64,000 bases of DNA from Rhizobium sp. 007 (lineage in GTDB: Bacteria > Pseudomonadota > Alphaproteobacteria > Rhizobiales > Rhizobiaceae). The notes under the pieces are model-generated. The model made no database searches and was not told where the DNA came from. It saw nothing but the letters and a program-made list of their open reading frames with translations. Below, one piece after another: positions 294 through 6,935 of this stretch. Within the stretch, counting starts at the first letter, position 1. Each line of letters opens with the position of its first letter. The position numbers and the translations under genes are program-made. The stretch lies in contig NZ_CP064188.1 of assembly GCF_015353075.1 (NCBI RefSeq), positions 248,001 through 312,000 on the forward strand, in the 5' to 3' direction.

Positions 294-1229
294 TCAGCCG
301 TGGCGCCGCCGCCAATCGGTCGGTGTTTCACCGGTCAATTTTCGGAATGCAGCTGCAAATGCTGTTTGCGAGGCATAACCGAGCGAGGCTGCGACCAACG
401 CGATCGAATTTTGAGGATCACGTAGCATGTTTATGGCCTGCTCGAGCCGATATTGACGGAGCCAGTTGTGAGGCGAAAGCCCCGTGCTTTCCTTGAAAGC
501 GCGACAGAAATGAAAACGTGATAGCCCGGAATCGGCAGCGAGGGCCGCGAGGGAGACGTCCGCGTCTGCGTCCGACCGCAATCGTTCGATGGCCCGGCGC
601 AGCACGCTCGGCGCGAGGCCGCCGAGCGCCGGCTGATAGCTCGGTGCCTTGCCGGTATGTGCAGCCAGCAGGCGCGTGGCCAGAAGATCGGTCAACTGCT
701 GCCTGAACAGTGTATCCAGTGCCGTATTGCCTTCCAGGACATCGGCTGCGCTCAGGAGCAATCGGGATGTAATGAGGTCCGGATGCGCCGTTCGCTCCAA
801 GAGATCGGTCGGCGTGAAAGTATCGGTTTCGTCGGCAATGCGCGTCAGTGTCGTGTGGGGAAGATAGAGCTGAACGACATCAACCGGTTTTGGAATATCC
901 CATCGGGAGCTTGATCCAGCCGGGATGATGATCACAACCCCGCGACGAAACGTTCCGCTCACGATCGATCTTCCTGACCGCCGTTCCATGCGCTGTATCG
1001 CGCCGTTGTAAGCCATGATGACGTGGTCGGTCATGGGCTCGACGACATCATGTAAGGGGCCGTGATTCCAGTGGGCGATTGCACCGCCGGAGGGGTCCGC
1101 CGCAAGATGAATTGGCGCAGTTCTGAGAACACGTGACATCTCGTTAGCAGGGTTCTGATCGGCGGCAGCCTTCGTTTCGGTCTCAGCCGGCGAGCTCTCG
1201 AGAGGATCGGTGGAACAAGGCAAGCTCAT
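294..1229 (-). CDS. AraC family transcriptional regulator
   Basis: A 311-residue protein, typical for the family. The C-terminal third carries the two AraC helix-turn-helix motifs: the first around SLAALAADSGLSRFHFCRAF, the second around IALVAASLGYASQTAFAAAF, followed by the usual RKLTGETPTDWRR tail. The N-terminal part resembles a cupin-like ligand-binding domain (GVVIIIPAGSSSRWDIPKP), so it should sense a small molecule that cannot be named from sequence. The first ATG is used; an in-frame ATG at 1139 is a possible shorter start. It stands alone: the nearest upstream gene is more than 500 bases away and a decayed paralogue lies downstream. Confidence 0.85.
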   Translation of the reverse strand: MSLPCSTDPLESSPAETETKAAADQNPANEMSRVLRTAPIHLAADPSGGAIAHWNHGPLHDVVEPMTDHVIMAYNGAIQRMERRSGRSIVSGTFRRGVVIIIPAGSSSRWDIPKPVDVVQLYLPHTTLTRIADETDTFTPTDLLERTAHPDLITSRLLLSAADVLEGNTALDTLFRQQLTDLLATRLLAAHTGKAPSYQPALGGLAPSVLRRAIERLRSDADADVSLAALAADSGLSRFHFCRAFKESTGLSPHNWLRQYRLEQAINMLRDPQNSIALVAASLGYASQTAFAAAFRKLTGETPTDWRRRHG

Positions 1230-1765
1230 GGTTGCGCGCTCGTCGATTGGCGCTGCTTGCGTGCGATCCTTGCAACAATTGCCAGCTCGTTGAGCGCCCG
1301 CCTATAGTGGCCAACCCTGTCAGTCTTCTTACGCATGACATCCCCATGTCGTGAGCAATTCCGCTGTGCTTCTGGTCATTCGCGCGTTGCTAGATGTAGC
1401 GAGGATATCAAGAATTTTCGAGGACGAAACCTATTCTCCAGGATAGGTTTCGTTCGCGATTGGACCTGGTTCTCAATCACGCGAGTTCAAGCGTCGCGCG
1501 ATGTATGCGCCGCCAGCCTGAGGGGCCACTTCGACGATAACGCCTATGGTGATATGCGCGACGCCATGGAGAATCGCGAATTTCCACCGGATGGGGAAGA
1601 GGAAGAAGAACCGGAGGAGGAAGGAGAAGATGAGTCTTCAGCTGGCCGCCGTCAGTTCCCACACCGCCACGCGACCATGGTCGTTACAGGTCCGCAGCGA
1701 TACATAATAATAATTCAGCTGCGTGATACGTTTTTGTATATCAGCATACACGTTGCAAGCGCAGG
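1230..1765. other. Intergenic stretch without a convincing gene
   Basis: About 535 bases between the AraC gene and doxX. It contains a perfect inverted repeat (listed separately) and a purine-rich run at about 1595-1640 (gga/gaa repeats) that would encode a poly-Glu stretch on the plus strand or a Phe/Leu-rich hydrophobic stretch on the minus strand. The open plus-strand frame through it also runs across the 3' half of doxX, so I do not accept it as a gene. Confidence 0.5.
1424..1453. repeat. Perfect 11-bp inverted repeat
   Basis: ACGAAACCTAT at 1424-1434 is followed after 8 bases by its exact reverse complement ATAGGTTTCGT at 1443-1453. There is no T-run, so it is not an obvious terminator. 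It lies in the gap between two minus-strand genes and could be an operator or an RNA hairpin. Confidence 0.6.
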
Positions 1766-2263
1766 TCATTTGCGGCGGGGCATGACAAGCGGATCAATCG
1801 CGAGCCTGCCCCCGCCAAACACGATCAATGCCAGCGCCATCGCCGCCCAGGGCAGGTGGAAATTCGCCCAGCCATCTGGAATGGTGAGCTGGATGATCGC
1901 CGTCATCAGCAGCAAGCCGAGGGCGGCGAAGCGTGTCGCCAAGCCAAGGACCAACAAAACCGGCAGGATCAGTTCTCCGATCCCCGCTGCGGTCGCCATC
2001 GCCAGTGGAAACGGATAGGCAATCTCGTTGCCGAAAATATGGAGTTTAAACTCCTGTTCGAAGAGATACCTCGCACCTTGCGAAAGCGTCAGGAATCCGT
2101 CCCATTTTGTCAGTCCCGACTTGAAGAAGGGAATCGCCAGCGCGAAGCGCAGTGCCAGCAGCGGCAGCGATTGAGGAACGGAGGCGAGCAGGCCTTCGGT
2201 ACGTCTGATGAGGGCGGCCAAGGCAGCGCCAGAGCCGTTGGATGAGGCAGCTTCGGTCTTCAT
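1766..2263 (-). CDS. DoxX family membrane protein (bufferin operon)
   Basis: A 165-residue integral membrane protein with four hydrophobic segments. The DoxX features are visible: an N-terminal RFALAIPFFKSGLTKWDGFL segment and a G-E-L-x-L-P-V-L-L-V-L-G-L segment in the middle. DoxX proteins are inner-membrane proteins of poorly defined redox or respiratory function. The start overlaps the stop of the DUF2063 gene by ATGA, so it is translationally coupled as the last gene of the bufferin operon. DoxX genes are known neighbours of DUF692/DUF2063 pairs. Its exact job is unknown. Confidence 0.88.
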   Translation of the reverse strand: MKTEAASSNGSGAALAALIRRTEGLLASVPQSLPLLALRFALAIPFFKSGLTKWDGFLTLSQGARYLFEQEFKLHIFGNEIAYPFPLAMATAAGIGELILPVLLVLGLATRFAALGLLLMTAIIQLTIPDGWANFHLPWAAMALALIVFGGGRLAIDPLVMPRRK

Positions 2264-3042
2264 GCGACATTTCCTTCGTGCTGTTGGAGGGCGCTGAATG
2301 CGCCGAGGCTGGCAAGACCAATCAGCGCCGTTCCGAAATCGAATGCGGGGCCAGCGGTAAATGCAGCCTCTGCCGCCGCGCCAAGAGTGGCGGCGTTGAA
2401 CAAGCAGGCCGCAAAGACCGCGTCCTGCGGCGGAACGACATGGACATTGACGGTCATCTGTGGCCGTACGACCAGGACGGCCTGCGGTCGCCAGTCGACG
2501 AGCGGCGCAACCATGTCCTGCTGATGCGCGCTCCAGATGGAGCCAACTGGATAGTCCGAACGGATCAAGCCCGCTGAAGGGTGCGGGACGAGCCGCAAGT
2601 CCGCAAGCATCTCGGGCGCCGCGGCTGCGAGTACCGCGAGGTCGAGCGGCGCGGAATCCGCCGCGTGATAGGCGCGCATCCAGGCCGCCTCGACCCGGGC
2701 GACATCGGGCAGATAGGCAAGCTCTCTCGCTGGCTGGAAGCTCGCAATGAAATCCGGGAAGTCGCCGCCATATTCGATGATCAGCGGTGAGGCGGGTTTG
2801 TGATCCTGGGCATAGGCCCGCGCCATGGCCATGAAGAATTCCGTGCCAACGAGCCGCTCGGTTACCGGAAAGTGCTGGGCGAGTGCCTTTGTCAGCCCGA
2901 CGAAGACATTGTTGCGGTAGACGGCGAACCGCGCAGCGTCGACCCCGCCGCGCGCGGTGGCGATGCCGTCCGGCACCGGCCGATCGGCATGCAGCAAAGC
3001 GTCGGCAAAGGCGGTCTGGCTGGTGACAAAATCCATGGTCAT
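2260..3042 (-). CDS. bufC: DUF2063 putative DNA-binding-domain protein, bufferin maturation partner BufC
   Basis: A 260-residue protein with the DUF2063 (HvfC/BufC) pattern: an N-terminal helical domain containing [19 protein letters not shown] and [13 protein letters not shown], then [20 protein letters not shown]. In bufferin and methanobactin-like systems such proteins partner the DUF692 iron enzyme and help present the precursor peptide. Despite the family name, DNA binding is not established. The gene overlaps the DUF692 gene upstream and doxX downstream by ATGA junctions. The family call is firm; the role is by analogy with the Caulobacter system. Confidence 0.85.
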
Positions 3043-3926
3043 GCCGCCTTCATCCGACGCTTTTTAGGGCGTAGCGCTTCGGCGGCGAGCATCGCATCCG
3101 CGCGTGCCGCCTCCGCCTGCAGGGTGTCGAAATCCGGAACGTCGTTGTCCCATTCAATCAGCGTCGGCAGCGGTCCGCTGCGCGCAAGCGTGTGTTCGTA
3201 GAGCGCCACCACATCGCTCCTGACCGCCGTACCATGCGCATCGATCAACAGTCTGTCGCCGGCGTCGTCGATGGTCTCGTCGTATCCGGCGAGATGAATC
3301 TCGCCAACACGCTCGACCGGGAAGCGGTCGATATAGCTAGTGGCGTCGAGCCGATGGTTCACCGCCGACACCATCACGTTGTTGACGTCGAGCAGCAGAC
3401 CGCAGCCGGTGCGCTCCGCAATCGTCGCGAGGAAATCGATTTCGTCGATCGTACTGTCCGCGAACAGCACATAGGTCGACGGGTTTTCGAGTAGCAGTTG
3501 TCGCCCGAGTGCCTGCTGCGTTTCGTCGACATGGTCGATGACGCGCGCCAGGGTTTCTTGTGTATAAGGAAGCGGCAGCAAGTCGTTGAGAAAGCCCGTG
3601 TCGTGGGTCGACCAGGCCAGATGTTCGGAGAAACTCTGCGGTCGATAGCGTTCGATCAAGCCGCGCAACCGCTTTAGATGCGTCTTGTCGAGCCCGCGCG
3701 CCGCGCCGATCGACAAGCCAACGCCATGCAGCGAAAGTGGATAGAGTTCCGTGATGGCTTCCAGATAATGATGCGGCGGCCCACCGGCGCCCATGTAGTT
3801 CTCGGCATGCACCTCAAAGAAGCCGACATCCGGCCGATTGGCCAGAATAGTCTCATAGTGCTTGGGCTTGAGGCCGAGACCGGCGCGCGCGGGCAAGACG
3901 GAAGTTGGAATTTTTGAAGCGGACAT
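3039..3926 (-). CDS. bufB: DUF692 multinuclear iron enzyme BufB (bufferin peptide maturase)
   Basis: A 295-residue DUF692 (MbnB/BufB) protein. Conserved landmarks follow each other: [79 protein letters not shown] and [13 protein letters not shown]. The His, Glu, Asp and Asn residues in these motifs are the kind that bind the iron cluster in this TIM-barrel family. Known members oxidatively convert precursor cysteines to heterocycles (oxazolone/thioamide in methanobactin, thiooxazole in bufferins). It follows the precursor gene after a 63-base gap with a hairpin and overlaps bufC. The peptide is the expected substrate. Confidence 0.92.
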
Positions 3927-3957
3927 CGCGGTTCTCCCCGGTTTTGTCAGACAACAC

Positions 3958-3980
3958 GGAGGCCCAGATTCCGGGCCCCC
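3958..3980 (-). terminator. Intergenic hairpin between bufferin precursor and maturase genes
   Basis: GGAGGCCC (3958-3965) and GGGCCCCC (3973-3980) pair with one mismatch around a 7-base loop. No U-tract follows, so it is more likely a leaky terminator or a 3'-end stabiliser of the precursor mRNA than a full stop. Such a hairpin would let the small peptide be made in excess of its enzymes. Confidence 0.5.
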
Positions 3981-3989
3981 GCTTGGCGG

Positions 3990-4277
3990 TCAGCCCTTGA
4001 TCGGCTCCAGCTTGCCCATGTGGCCATCGACATTCATGCTGGTGCAGGTACCGGCCGGCACGGCCTTCCAGGCGTTGCCCTGGTAGTCCATCGTTGAGGT
4101 ACCCGCGCAGGTCGTGCCGGCGCCGGCTGCGCAGTCGTTCTGACCCTTGAGCGCGATGCCATAGCATTTCTCGTTGCCGACCATTTTCTCAGCCGGCAAC
4201 GGTGCGGCGAAGGCAACCGATGCAATAGCGGTGGCGAGCGAGCCGGCGAGGGTAAGGGTGAGCGTGGAACGGTTCAT
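3990..4277 (-). CDS. bufA1: DUF2282 bufferin-type RiPP precursor, BufA1-like
   Basis: A 95-residue secreted small protein. Residues 1-24 form a Sec signal peptide (a hydrophobic stretch ending AFA before APLP). The mature part has the DUF2282 pattern with four cysteines at 38, 49, 57 and 78: [24 protein letters not shown] and VPAGTC. In Caulobacter the DUF2282 peptide bufferin 1 is modified on cysteines by DUF692/DUF2063 proteins and sequesters copper in the periplasm. It is the first gene of a four-gene minus-strand operon and has an ECF-type promoter 50-80 bases upstream. The family is clear; the copper role here is by homology. Confidence 0.92.
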
Positions 4278-4332
4278 GGTTGATCTCCTCTTGGACCTTC
4301 CGCGTGCCGGTCATCGGCCGCGTAATCCTCCC

Positions 4333-4358
4333 TTCGGTCCGGCGAGGCCTTCTGTTAC
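4333..4358 (-). promoter_or_regulatory. ECF-sigma (SigF-type) promoter for the bufferin operon
   Basis: On the minus strand GTAACA (4358-4353) and CGAA (4336-4333) are separated by exactly 16 bases. This matches the GTAACC-N16-CGAA pattern reported for the Caulobacter SigF regulon. The -10 box is about 55 bases upstream of the precursor ATG at 4277. Confidence 0.72.
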
Positions 4359-4424
4359 GCATGGCAACAAACACGAATTCGTGATCGAAGGTGTGGCTTC
4401 GTTGGACATTATTTCGGGCGGCGC

Positions 4425-4450
4425 GTAACAAAGCAGCCTGTGCGCGCGTA
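4425..4450 (+). promoter_or_regulatory. ECF-sigma promoter for the sigma/anti-sigma operon (autoregulation)
   Basis: GTAACA (4425-4430), 16 bases, then CGTA (4447-4450) on the plus strand. It has the same -35 and spacing as the divergent bufferin promoter, differing only in the last -10 bases. It lies directly ahead of the likely sigma start at 4466, so the sigma factor probably activates its own transcription. Confidence 0.65.
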
Positions 4451-4465
4451 TTGGAGAGACAAGGG

Positions 4466-5002
4466 TTGAACGGGGACGCGGAAAATGAACTTGCCATGCT
4501 GCTGCGCGCCGCGATCGCAGGGGATGAAAGGGCCTATGCTGCGTTTCTGGGACGCACCGCCGCCATCGTGCGTGGCTTCGCGCGTCGGAAGATCGTGCTG
4601 GGCGGCGTCGATCCCGAGGACATCGTGCAGGAAACGCTTCTGGCTATTCATATGAAGCGTCATACATGGATCAGCGACGCGCCTGTCTTGCCTTGGGTTT
4701 ATGCGATCGCGCGCTTTAAGCTGATCGACGCTTTTCGAAAGCGTGGCCGCCATGTGGAGATCGAGATCGGCGACATCGCCGAGACGGTCGCTCAGCCGGA
4801 GGCCGAGGCGGTGAGCGACCGTGAGATCGGTCGCGTGCTGGATGGGCTGGCGCCGGGCCAGCGTTCTGTCGTAGCCGCGATTTCGATCGAGGGGCGTTCG
4901 ATCGGCGAGACCGCCGACAAGTTCGGCATGACGGAGACGGCGGTGCGAGTTGCCCTGCACCGAGGTTTGCGATCGATCGCAAAGAAGTTTGGACGGAGCT
5001 GA
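4466..5002 (+). CDS. sigF: ECF RNA polymerase sigma factor (SigF/ECF16-like)
   Basis: A sigma-70 family ECF factor of about 178 residues. Region 2 is visible as DPEDIVQETLLAIHMKR followed by LPWVYAIARFKLIDAFRKRGR. Region 4 is visible as LAPGQRSVVAAISIEG and IGETADKFGMTETAVRVALHRGL. The frame is open upstream to 4391, but a GGAGAG ribosome site at 4453-4458 and the mapped -10 box argue for the TTG at 4466; ATG at 4496 is the alternative. The next gene, the NrsF-type anti-sigma, begins one base after the stop. The pairing with NrsF and the divergent bufferin operon matches the Caulobacter SigF metal-stress system. Confidence 0.88.
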   Translation: MNGDAENELAMLLRAAIAGDERAYAAFLGRTAAIVRGFARRKIVLGGVDPEDIVQETLLAIHMKRHTWISDAPVLPWVYAIARFKLIDAFRKRGRHVEIEIGDIAETVAQPEAEAVSDREIGRVLDGLAPGQRSVVAAISIEGRSIGETADKFGMTETAVRVALHRGLRSIAKKFGRS

Positions 5003-5003
5003 A

Positions 5004-5642
5004 ATGCAGACCAACGACCTCATCAACGCCCTGAAGGCAGATGCGCCAAAGCAGGCGATGCCGCTTGGCTATGCATGGTGGGTGGCGATCGTCGCCGCGA
5101 CGATCATCGCAGCGGGCGTCTTCTTCGTCCTTATCGGTCCGCGCTCCGACTTCGCGGTGGCCGCCCACACGCTGCGGTTCCTGTTCAAATTCATCGTCAC
5201 ACTTGCGCTCGCCGTCGTCGCTTTTGTGCTCCTGCGGGTGTTGTCGCGTCCCGGTTCCGATGTCAGACGCGCCGCTTGTTGGCTCTTTCTTGTGCCGATC
5301 CTTCTCGGCACTGCGGTGGTGGCCGAATTGTTCGTCGTGCCTTCTGATCAGTTGGTTACGGTCTGGTGGGGCAGTAACGTCTATGTCTGCCTGACCTTCA
5401 TCCCGCTGATCGGTCTCGGCCCGCTGGCCGTTTTTCTGGCGGCGCTCCGTCACGGCGCGCCGACGCGCCCCCGCCTTGCCGGCGCCGTCGCTGGCCTGCT
5501 TGCCGGCGGCATCGCCGCAACCTTCTACGCAGCCCATTGCACCGACGATTCACCGCTGTTCGTCGCTACCTGGTATTCTATCGCTATCGCCGGCCTTGCA
5601 GCGCTCGGCACGGTCCTTGGCGGACGCGTTGCGCGCTGGTGA
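5004..5642 (+). CDS. nrsF: NrsF (DUF1109) transmembrane anti-sigma factor
   Basis: A 212-residue inner-membrane protein with about six transmembrane segments and a short cytoplasmic N-terminus (MQTNDLINALKADA). This is the DUF1109/NrsF architecture. Two cysteines sit where the family needs them for metal or redox sensing: one in NVYVCLTFIPLIGLGP and one in YAAHCTDDSPLF. NrsF holds its ECF sigma factor inactive until heavy metals or oxidants act on these cysteines. The ATG at 5004 lies one base after the sigma stop. A longer open frame from 4950 would overlap the sigma gene and is not needed. Confidence 0.88.
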   Translation: MQTNDLINALKADAPKQAMPLGYAWWVAIVAATIIAAGVFFVLIGPRSDFAVAAHTLRFLFKFIVTLALAVVAFVLLRVLSRPGSDVRRAACWLFLVPILLGTAVVAELFVVPSDQLVTVWWGSNVYVCLTFIPLIGLGPLAVFLAALRHGAPTRPRLAGAVAGLLAGGIAATFYAAHCTDDSPLFVATWYSIAIAGLAALGTVLGGRVARW

Positions 5643-6556
5643 AGCTTTCCGATTCGATCACCAGAATAGGAGGTACGAAGGGGACACCGACGCAGGGAAT
5701 GCATCTCTGTCTGATTTCGCTCAGTTATCTAGGCCGACAATCGTATTTTCTGTCGACTTGAGATTGGTTCCGTATCGGGCGACGACGAGAAACCTTCCAA
5801 TATCCGTGCATAGGCTTTCAGCAAGGCCGAGAGTTCCCCATTTGGTGTCCAGCGGTTTGTCGCCGGTCTGAACTTTTGCCGCCCAGCAACTCCAAGAAAG
5901 GTTATGAGGGCGCCGTGACCACCCGCCAACAGGATAGCCCGTCGCCAAGGTACTGCCAAAACCAGCCTATGTCGCGGGCTCGCTAGCCGGGCTGATTGCT
6001 GGTCTGGCGATCATCCGCTTCCTCACTCAAGGGAAAACCGCGTGAATAGCGTTCCCATCAAAGCGGGTCGTGATCCAATCGAGGCAAGACATGGCGAGCG
6101 AACAGATCCGCCTCGAGGCGGGAGATATGGCCGAAGGTCGTCTTCGTCCGCGAACTGATTCCCCACATCGTTTTCACGAGATCGGCTATTCCGGGCCTTA
6201 CGAGAGTTACGCGCTTCAGAGAGCAAACCTCTTTGAGCCCGATTGATCGGACAGCCTGGTACAGGCCCTCTTTCCGCTGAAAACGGAAGCGATCGGTGCT
6301 GCTGGAGTGGAAAGCAAACAACTGGCGCAACGCCCAAGCCGTGGACAAATTCTTTGTCCCAGCGGAAGCAAGCCAATCCCGCTTGTCTGTGATGGCGTCC
6401 TGGCCCGGTTCCGGATCGCCCACGATCAACCCATAAAGGGTCCGCTAGCAAGCTGCGGCCGCTCTCGGCCATCGCGTTCGCGGTGATCGCGCCCGTATCC
6501 GTGCCTTTTGAGGAGCCATCGAGGGAATTGGCCCGCTCCCGAATGGAGCCTCTCAC
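5643..6556. other. Long intergenic stretch with possible gene debris
   Basis: About 900 bases without a recognisable intact gene. A short plus-strand frame ending at 6044 reads AGSLAGLIAGLAIIRFLTQG, which looks like the last membrane helix of a lost protein. A minus-strand frame at 6058-6429 (123 residues, ending FARHVLPRLDHDPL) is open, but I cannot assign it to a family. The stretch separates the metal-response module from the LysR/MFS module and is probably degenerate. Confidence 0.45.
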
Positions 6557-6724
6557 ATGTCGCACGATCTCTCCCTCGCACAGTCCCACGCCTTCCAGCT
6601 TTCCCGCGACCTGATGGTCCCGGTCACCGTCTTCGAGGTCGACGGTGAGTACGGCGTCCTGCCCGCCGACGAGATCGACGCCGACGACGATCTTGAGATC
6701 GTCCATGAATATGACCCGTGGTAG
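6557..6724 (+). CDS. Small acidic hypothetical protein
   Basis: A 55-residue frame beginning MSHDLSLAQSHAFQLSRDL and ending EIVHEYDPW, with a very acidic middle (ADEIDADDDLEIV). Codon use is strongly GC3-biased, like real genes in the window. Small proteins of this look occur on rhizobial plasmids, but no function is known to me. No close partner gene is present. A possible weak ribosome site (ggagcc) lies about 10 bases upstream of the ATG. Confidence 0.5.
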   Translation: MSHDLSLAQSHAFQLSRDLMVPVTVFEVDGEYGVLPADEIDADDDLEIVHEYDPW

Positions 6725-6935
6725 ATCATGATCATCTCGCGCTGAACCCTTTGGTCTGCAGGCATCAGAGAGGTATTTCGGGTGTGCCTAATCACCCCGG
6801 TCGCAGTGCAATTGGATAGCACTGAGGATGGATCGGATAGATCGAAACGGCGAGGCCCTCGCAAGAATTGCTTCACGTGACAGCCGGCACCCACAGGCAG
6901 TGTGCTGGGGACGGGAGCCGTTGATAAATCGAAGT

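Follow-up and report, generated by a model that had tools for sequence, protein, structure and literature searches.

The window examined here is a stretch of 64,000 nucleotides from Rhizobium sp. 007, bases 248001–312000 of contig C2 (NZ_CP064188.1; 2,277,229 bases) in a 7.6 Mb genome of five contigs. Positions 1766–5642 of this window hold six genes that very probably form a bufferin operon together with the extracytoplasmic function (ECF) sigma factor and NrsF anti-sigma factor that control it. Four of the genes lie on the minus strand. In order from the promoter side these are bufA (3990–4277), which encodes a 95-residue precursor of the BufA1/DUF2282 type (PF10048, E = 5.4e-25); bufB (3039–3926), for an MNIO maturase of 295 residues (PF05114, MbnB_TglH_ChrH, E = 1.6e-105); bufC (2260–3042), for a DUF2063 partner protein of 260 residues (PF09836, E = 1.9e-27, residues 8–99); and doxX (1766–2263), for a DoxX-family membrane protein of 165 residues (PF07681, E = 8.2e-16). 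Divergently, on the plus strand, an ECF16-type sigma factor gene (4466–5002, 178 residues) is directly followed by nrsF (5004–5642), which begins 1 nucleotide past the sigma stop codon and encodes a membrane anti-sigma factor of 212 residues (PF06532, E = 6.1e-55). A Pfam search called a family above its cut-off for each of the six genes and all six frames are open, which bears out the original prediction, made from the letters of this DNA, of an intact bufferin operon with a divergent ECF sigma/NrsF pair. The same prediction held that the operon genes are coupled throughout by ATGA overlaps. Such overlaps are present between bufB and bufC and between bufC and doxX, whereas bufB begins 63 nucleotides downstream of bufA on the same strand, and a GC-rich stem-loop of 9 Watson-Crick pairs (3956–3982, minus strand) lies in the gap.

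In translation, BufA carries cysteines at residues 38, 49, 57 and 78, exactly as had been claimed, and its N-terminus has a hydrophobic segment that by eye resembles a Sec signal. No NCBIfam model matched the precursor; a Rhizobium protein 91% identical to it (P0002, among 120 homologues listed out of at least 8000) bears the name BufA1 family periplasmic bufferin-type metallophore. We compared the locus with a set of 80 related loci, the best of at least 585 BufB matches, which lean to Hyphomicrobiales and from which L003 and L084 (the broken locus of this genome, described below) were excluded. From 79 of these loci we obtained 93 BufA-like open reading frames (ORFs); none was found in the remaining one, L082, which begins just before bufB. 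The four cysteines are kept in all 93, with a spacing of 10-7-20 in 78 and of 10-6-20 in 15. Around the third cysteine the heptapeptide TTCAGTS, the form present in the window, is the commonest (59/93), and the shorter CAGTS is found in 67 of the 93 sequences. Other forms are HDCAGKS (10 sequences), TTCAGTA (9), TSCAGTS (4) and ten rarer ones that together account for 11 sequences. Two BufA-like ORFs occur in 14 of the 79 related loci, including L024, L029, L034, L037, L042 and L044; the second ORF of L044 has HDCAGKS at the third cysteine and one residue fewer between cysteines 2 and 3.

The maturase BufB scores 385.4 bits against the NCBIfam equivalog NF050167 (MNIO_BufB; cut-off 310) and matches the Histophilus MNIO structure 3BWW with E = 2.7e-43. 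HvfB has three residues described as essential (N175, D242 and H244; PMC13419390), which the 3BWW alignment places at N183, D229 and H231 of BufB, mapped as iron-site-3 ligands, and Asp249 of FonB, a proposed catalytic base (PMC13097082), maps to D260; this mapping is our own and assumes near-equal numbering. Each of the four BufB residues is at least 97% conserved among the 80 relatives. The NCBIfam models for the other two operon proteins gave matches under their cut-offs, NF050145 (HvfC-family) on BufC and NF050144 (HvfX-family; 51 bits, cut-off 80) on DoxX.

The sigma factor matches PF08281 and PF04542 (sigma-70 regions 2 and 4) above cut-off and NF009165 with 237 bits (cut-off 198); the name ECF16 is taken over from the Sinorhizobium meliloti orthologue (PMC6180224). 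The likeliest start of its gene is TTG 4466, with GGAGAG upstream. We prefer this start because the longer ORF, which opens at 4391, would enclose a promoter-like box at 4425–4450, and because the first 28 residues of that ORF lie outside the alignment to the family model. NrsF had been described as a two-cysteine protein. It contains three. Two of them, Cys129 and Cys179, recur in 36 of the 37 NrsF proteins aligned, and Cys92 is not conserved; the narrower NrsF model NF042994 is matched below its cut-off (98 bits against 300). In the Caulobacter protein, change of the equivalent cysteine pair raises the expression of sigma-F-dependent genes (PMC3511200).

Each of the two divergent units is preceded by a promoter-like box: GTAACA-N16-CGAA on the minus strand (4333–4358), 81 nucleotides upstream of bufA, and GTAACA-N16-CGTA on the plus strand (4425–4450) ahead of the sigma gene. 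Both are close to the published Caulobacter sigma-F motif, GTAACC-N16-CGAA (PMC3511200), and to the RpoE7 promoters of S. meliloti. Using a relaxed pattern (GTAACN-N15-17-CGWA), we found bufA to be preceded by a box in 27 of the 36 related loci that have sigma and NrsF genes and in 15 of 43 other loci; from the background rate of the pattern in these stretches, 0.29 and 0.28 were expected. A 12-bp palindrome, CACGAATTCGTG, with no strand assigned, lies upstream of the bufA box at 4372–4383. It occurs at two places in the genome. Of the 11 orthologous loci that we read, 4 have it unaltered, among them two that lack a local sigma gene, and a fifth differs from it by one base.

The arrangement corresponds to gene sets that are already in print. 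In S. meliloti the same organization has been described for rpoE7-ecfR7 and SMb20530-SMb20527, in which an ECF16 sigma factor and its anti-sigma factor are divergent from target genes for a conserved membrane protein, a DUF692 protein, a DUF2063 protein and a fourth conserved protein, with TGTAACA promoter motifs upstream of both units (PMC6180224). The S. meliloti targets are termed conserved hypothetical proteins in that paper and are likened to the window genes by description; the set rises under RpoE7 overexpression (PMC6180224). It is described there as orthologous to sigF-nrsF and CC3254-CC3257 of Caulobacter vibrioides, the bufferin 1 locus, which shares with the window two conserved NrsF cysteines (131 and 181) and a four-cysteine DUF2282 precursor (PMC3511200, PMC12452194). 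Buf1 clusters with sigma and NrsF genes have also been reported before (PMC12452194). The equivalence to Caulobacter that the original prediction proposed is thus backed by the family models and the promoter boxes, by the order of the genes and by the relatives. We read the locus, with a probability of roughly 90%, as a Buf1 operon with an ECF sigma/NrsF switch.

Several observations weigh against this reading. The likeness of the precursor to Caulobacter BufA1 rests on description and not on a direct alignment. The Caulobacter motif has C as its sixth base where the window has A (PMC3511200), and the box of the sigma unit ends in CGTA, one base off CGAA. Nine of the 36 loci with sigma and NrsF genes show no bufA box by the relaxed pattern. 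Reporter fusions of S. meliloti rpoE7 and SMb20530 are described as unresponsive to H2O2, CdCl2 and K2CrO4 (PMC6180224). Finally, a promoter pattern whose letters M and W had been picked after inspecting the window's own sites was not enriched genome-wide, with 68 matches against 194 for the reversed control, and we dropped it as a finder of regulon members. Only the position of the boxes is therefore treated as informative, and no further targets are named.

The operon is a typical example of a known gene set that is common in relatives. In 35 of the 80 related loci, the stretch of DNA analysed contains all six genes. Across 148 genomes of the genus, DUF2282 matches occur in 105 and NrsF matches in 147, and DUF2282 genes have been counted in 4072 fully assembled genomes (PMC12452194). 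The idea that a rhizobial version would be special is thus unsupported, given the frequency of DUF2282 matches in the genus and the published S. meliloti operon and sigma regulon (PMC6180224). Close copies of the whole 3877-bp stretch, at 95.6–98.0% identity, are present on 3 of 10 matching plasmid records, those of R. gallicum (NZ_CP017105.1 and NZ_CP092346.1) and of Rhizobium sp. CC1099 (NZ_CP121642.1). Among the 148 genomes, the full 3.9-kb unit aligns in 3 others, at 96, 87 and 81% identity, and all six genes are kept in each.

Within the Rhizobium sp. 007 genome PF05114 has a single match, and a second sigma/NrsF pair with open frames lies on contig C1 (4,296,727 bases, presumably the chromosome) near position 4,191,000 (L084 6955–8596). 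Its sigma factor is 42.5% identical to that of the window. The divergent pair of boxes is present at this second locus, and a broken bufA alone adjoins it. Compared with a relative, G024, the C1 locus has lost 2247 bp; the loss takes in the end part of bufA, spans bufB and bufC and reaches into a doxX gene (PF07681, E = 2.1e-17), and the remaining part of bufA has two one-base gaps relative to G024. Another genome, G052, is collinear with the shortened form. As the C1 operon is cut down, the operon in the window is the only complete one found in the genome, where two sigma/NrsF pairs remain. Separately, window positions 1748–2709 recur on the same contig at C2:2069166–2070127 with 97.3% identity over 962 bp; read by eye for junctions and ORFs, this copy holds doxX and the last 150 residues of bufC.

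Some relatives carry the operon without a neighbouring sigma gene. In 13 further genomes of the 148 the long alignment ends at query base 2621–2623, just past the bufA promoter. Together with the 3 full-length alignments these make 16 loci, and we read 11 of them. Three of the 11 have sigma and NrsF genes; at the other 8, neither gene was found in the 5.6 kb analysed. The bufA box is kept in all 11 and in the window, including 8 of 8 loci without a neighbouring sigma gene, and the divergent box of the sigma unit is present only in the window and in the 3 loci with a sigma gene. Operons of this kind in Rhizobium lentis, R. aethiopicum and R. bangladeshense (L004, L005, L006 and L010) resemble the window in their bufA-bufB-bufC-doxX order, in BufB (82–88% identical) and in having the bufA box, but unlike in the window no sigma or nrsF gene was found in the 7.9 kb analysed. 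Of the 13 genomes in which the alignment is shorter, 12 have their sole NrsF match on a different contig or at a distance of 0.9 Mb; the thirteenth, G009, has three NrsF matches, which are listed in part. At the 30 best-scoring NrsF loci of the genus, which have no bufA or bufB in the 3.6 kb analysed, a box precedes the sigma gene in every case. We infer that the operons without a neighbouring sigma gene may be controlled in trans by a remote sigma/NrsF pair.

The stem-loop behind bufA is a recurrent feature of the related loci. In the 60 nucleotides behind bufA, a stem of at least 8 Watson-Crick pairs is present in 59 of 79 loci, compared with 2.0 expected from dinucleotide shuffles, and one of at least 10 pairs in 35 of 79, compared with 0.5; these expectations ignore the relatedness of the loci. 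At control positions, stems of at least 8 pairs were found in 0 of 79 loci behind bufB and in 2 of 78 behind bufC. These positions fall in coding sequence where the genes overlap, and we therefore regard the shuffles as the fairer control. By eye, the sequences of the stem-loops vary between groups while the pairing persists, and the run of U behind the stem is missing in most loci. When 17 of the 23 listed stem-loop stretches were aligned with MAFFT, shifts in loop length appeared. Minimum free energies of the 90 nucleotides behind bufA gave a median z-score of −1.6, with 28 of 80 loci below −2 and the window at −1.0; as this test alone is weak, we relied on stem length. No Rfam family was found at 1200–6800 up to E = 0.5. 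A search of the open-licence literature found no hairpin behind a bufferin precursor gene, which is no proof of its absence from print, and the word "hairpin" is missing from the text of PMC12452194. A broader proposal combines the two observations: the stem-loop would be a general bufferin stoichiometry device that stalls or protects the transcript and so keeps the precursor in excess of the MNIO enzyme, and the Rhizobium promoter would have become uncoupled from a local sigma factor and be served in trans. We give this combined proposal an even chance of being right.

Based on these features and on the related systems, we propose the following mode of action. Metal stress, most likely from copper, would alter the conserved cysteine pair of NrsF and release the ECF16-type sigma factor, as the Caulobacter orthologue suggests. 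The sigma factor would then recognise the GTAAC-N16-CG(A/T)A promoters of the two divergent units and so raise the expression of bufABC-doxX and of its own gene; the boxes themselves are observed. BufB together with BufC is predicted from family reports to oxidise Cys49 and Cys57 of BufA to 5-thiooxazoles, and the outer Cys38 and Cys78 may form a disulphide. This would agree with Buf1, for which a figure legend gives the central cysteines as the modified ones and the outer two as joined in a disulphide (PMC12452194). After Sec export the peptide would buffer periplasmic copper, in line with what is reported for the family. The peptide had been called secreted, but the reported site of the bufferins is the periplasm (PMC12452194). 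Protecting the bacterium from copper in soil or nodules, as the original prediction put forward, would be a candidate role. The stem-loop, whose presence is statistically supported, probably lets the precursor mRNA exceed that of the enzymes.

The original prediction suggested that the product may carry a different modification, on the grounds that TTCAGTS and its spacing were this peptide's own. Both turn out to be the commonest forms among the relatives, which rules out the argument from an odd third-cysteine context; a supposed oddity that is in fact the norm offers no grounds for expecting a new modification. We consider it very improbable that this operon makes a peptide modified otherwise than by 5-thiooxazole formation, a reaction that is reported to remove 4 Da (PMC13097082). 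What can be said for it is that N261 of BufB, next to the mapped catalytic base, stands where Lys-Cys type enzymes carry Phe; however, the residue beside the base is reported as non-conserved in DUF2282-type enzymes (PMC13097082), and BufB lies 75 bits over the cut-off of its equivalog. There is similarly little to suggest that the window holds a decaying or silent copy, intact by chance. The second bufferin locus of the genome has indeed decayed, and a bufC fragment with doxX is duplicated elsewhere on the contig, but the six frames of the window are open, both promoter boxes are kept, and three other genomes have orthologues, 81–96% identical in DNA, in which all six genes are retained, so that we hold this explanation to be highly doubtful.

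A more serious alternative accepts the operon and its chemistry and gives it another main duty, against other soft metals such as gold, cadmium and chromate or against oxidants, for instance hypochlorous acid, copper being of lesser importance. In Caulobacter, chromium and cadmium elicit a sigma-F response (PMC3511200), the operons known as "gig" (gold-induced genes) have been identified as bufferin clusters (PMC12452194), and a paper on a Brucella ECF sigma/anti-sigma pair that mentions ECF16 deals with hypochlorous acid (PMC8315932). On the other hand, Buf1 is reported to buffer copper (PMC12452194), and the stimuli used on the S. meliloti fusions, cadmium, chromate and H2O2, gave no induction in the experiments described in PMC6180224. 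The features of the locus itself do not discriminate between the metals. We favour copper buffering as the main duty of this Buf1 operon and see another principal stress as a possible but distinctly less likely role.

The main value of these results is a correction, in that a proposed sequence oddity turns out to be normal among relatives. The locus could serve as a rhizobial model for the bufferins, and the conserved stem-loop behind bufA and the sigma-less operons that keep their promoter box are small, directly testable additions to what is known of this family.

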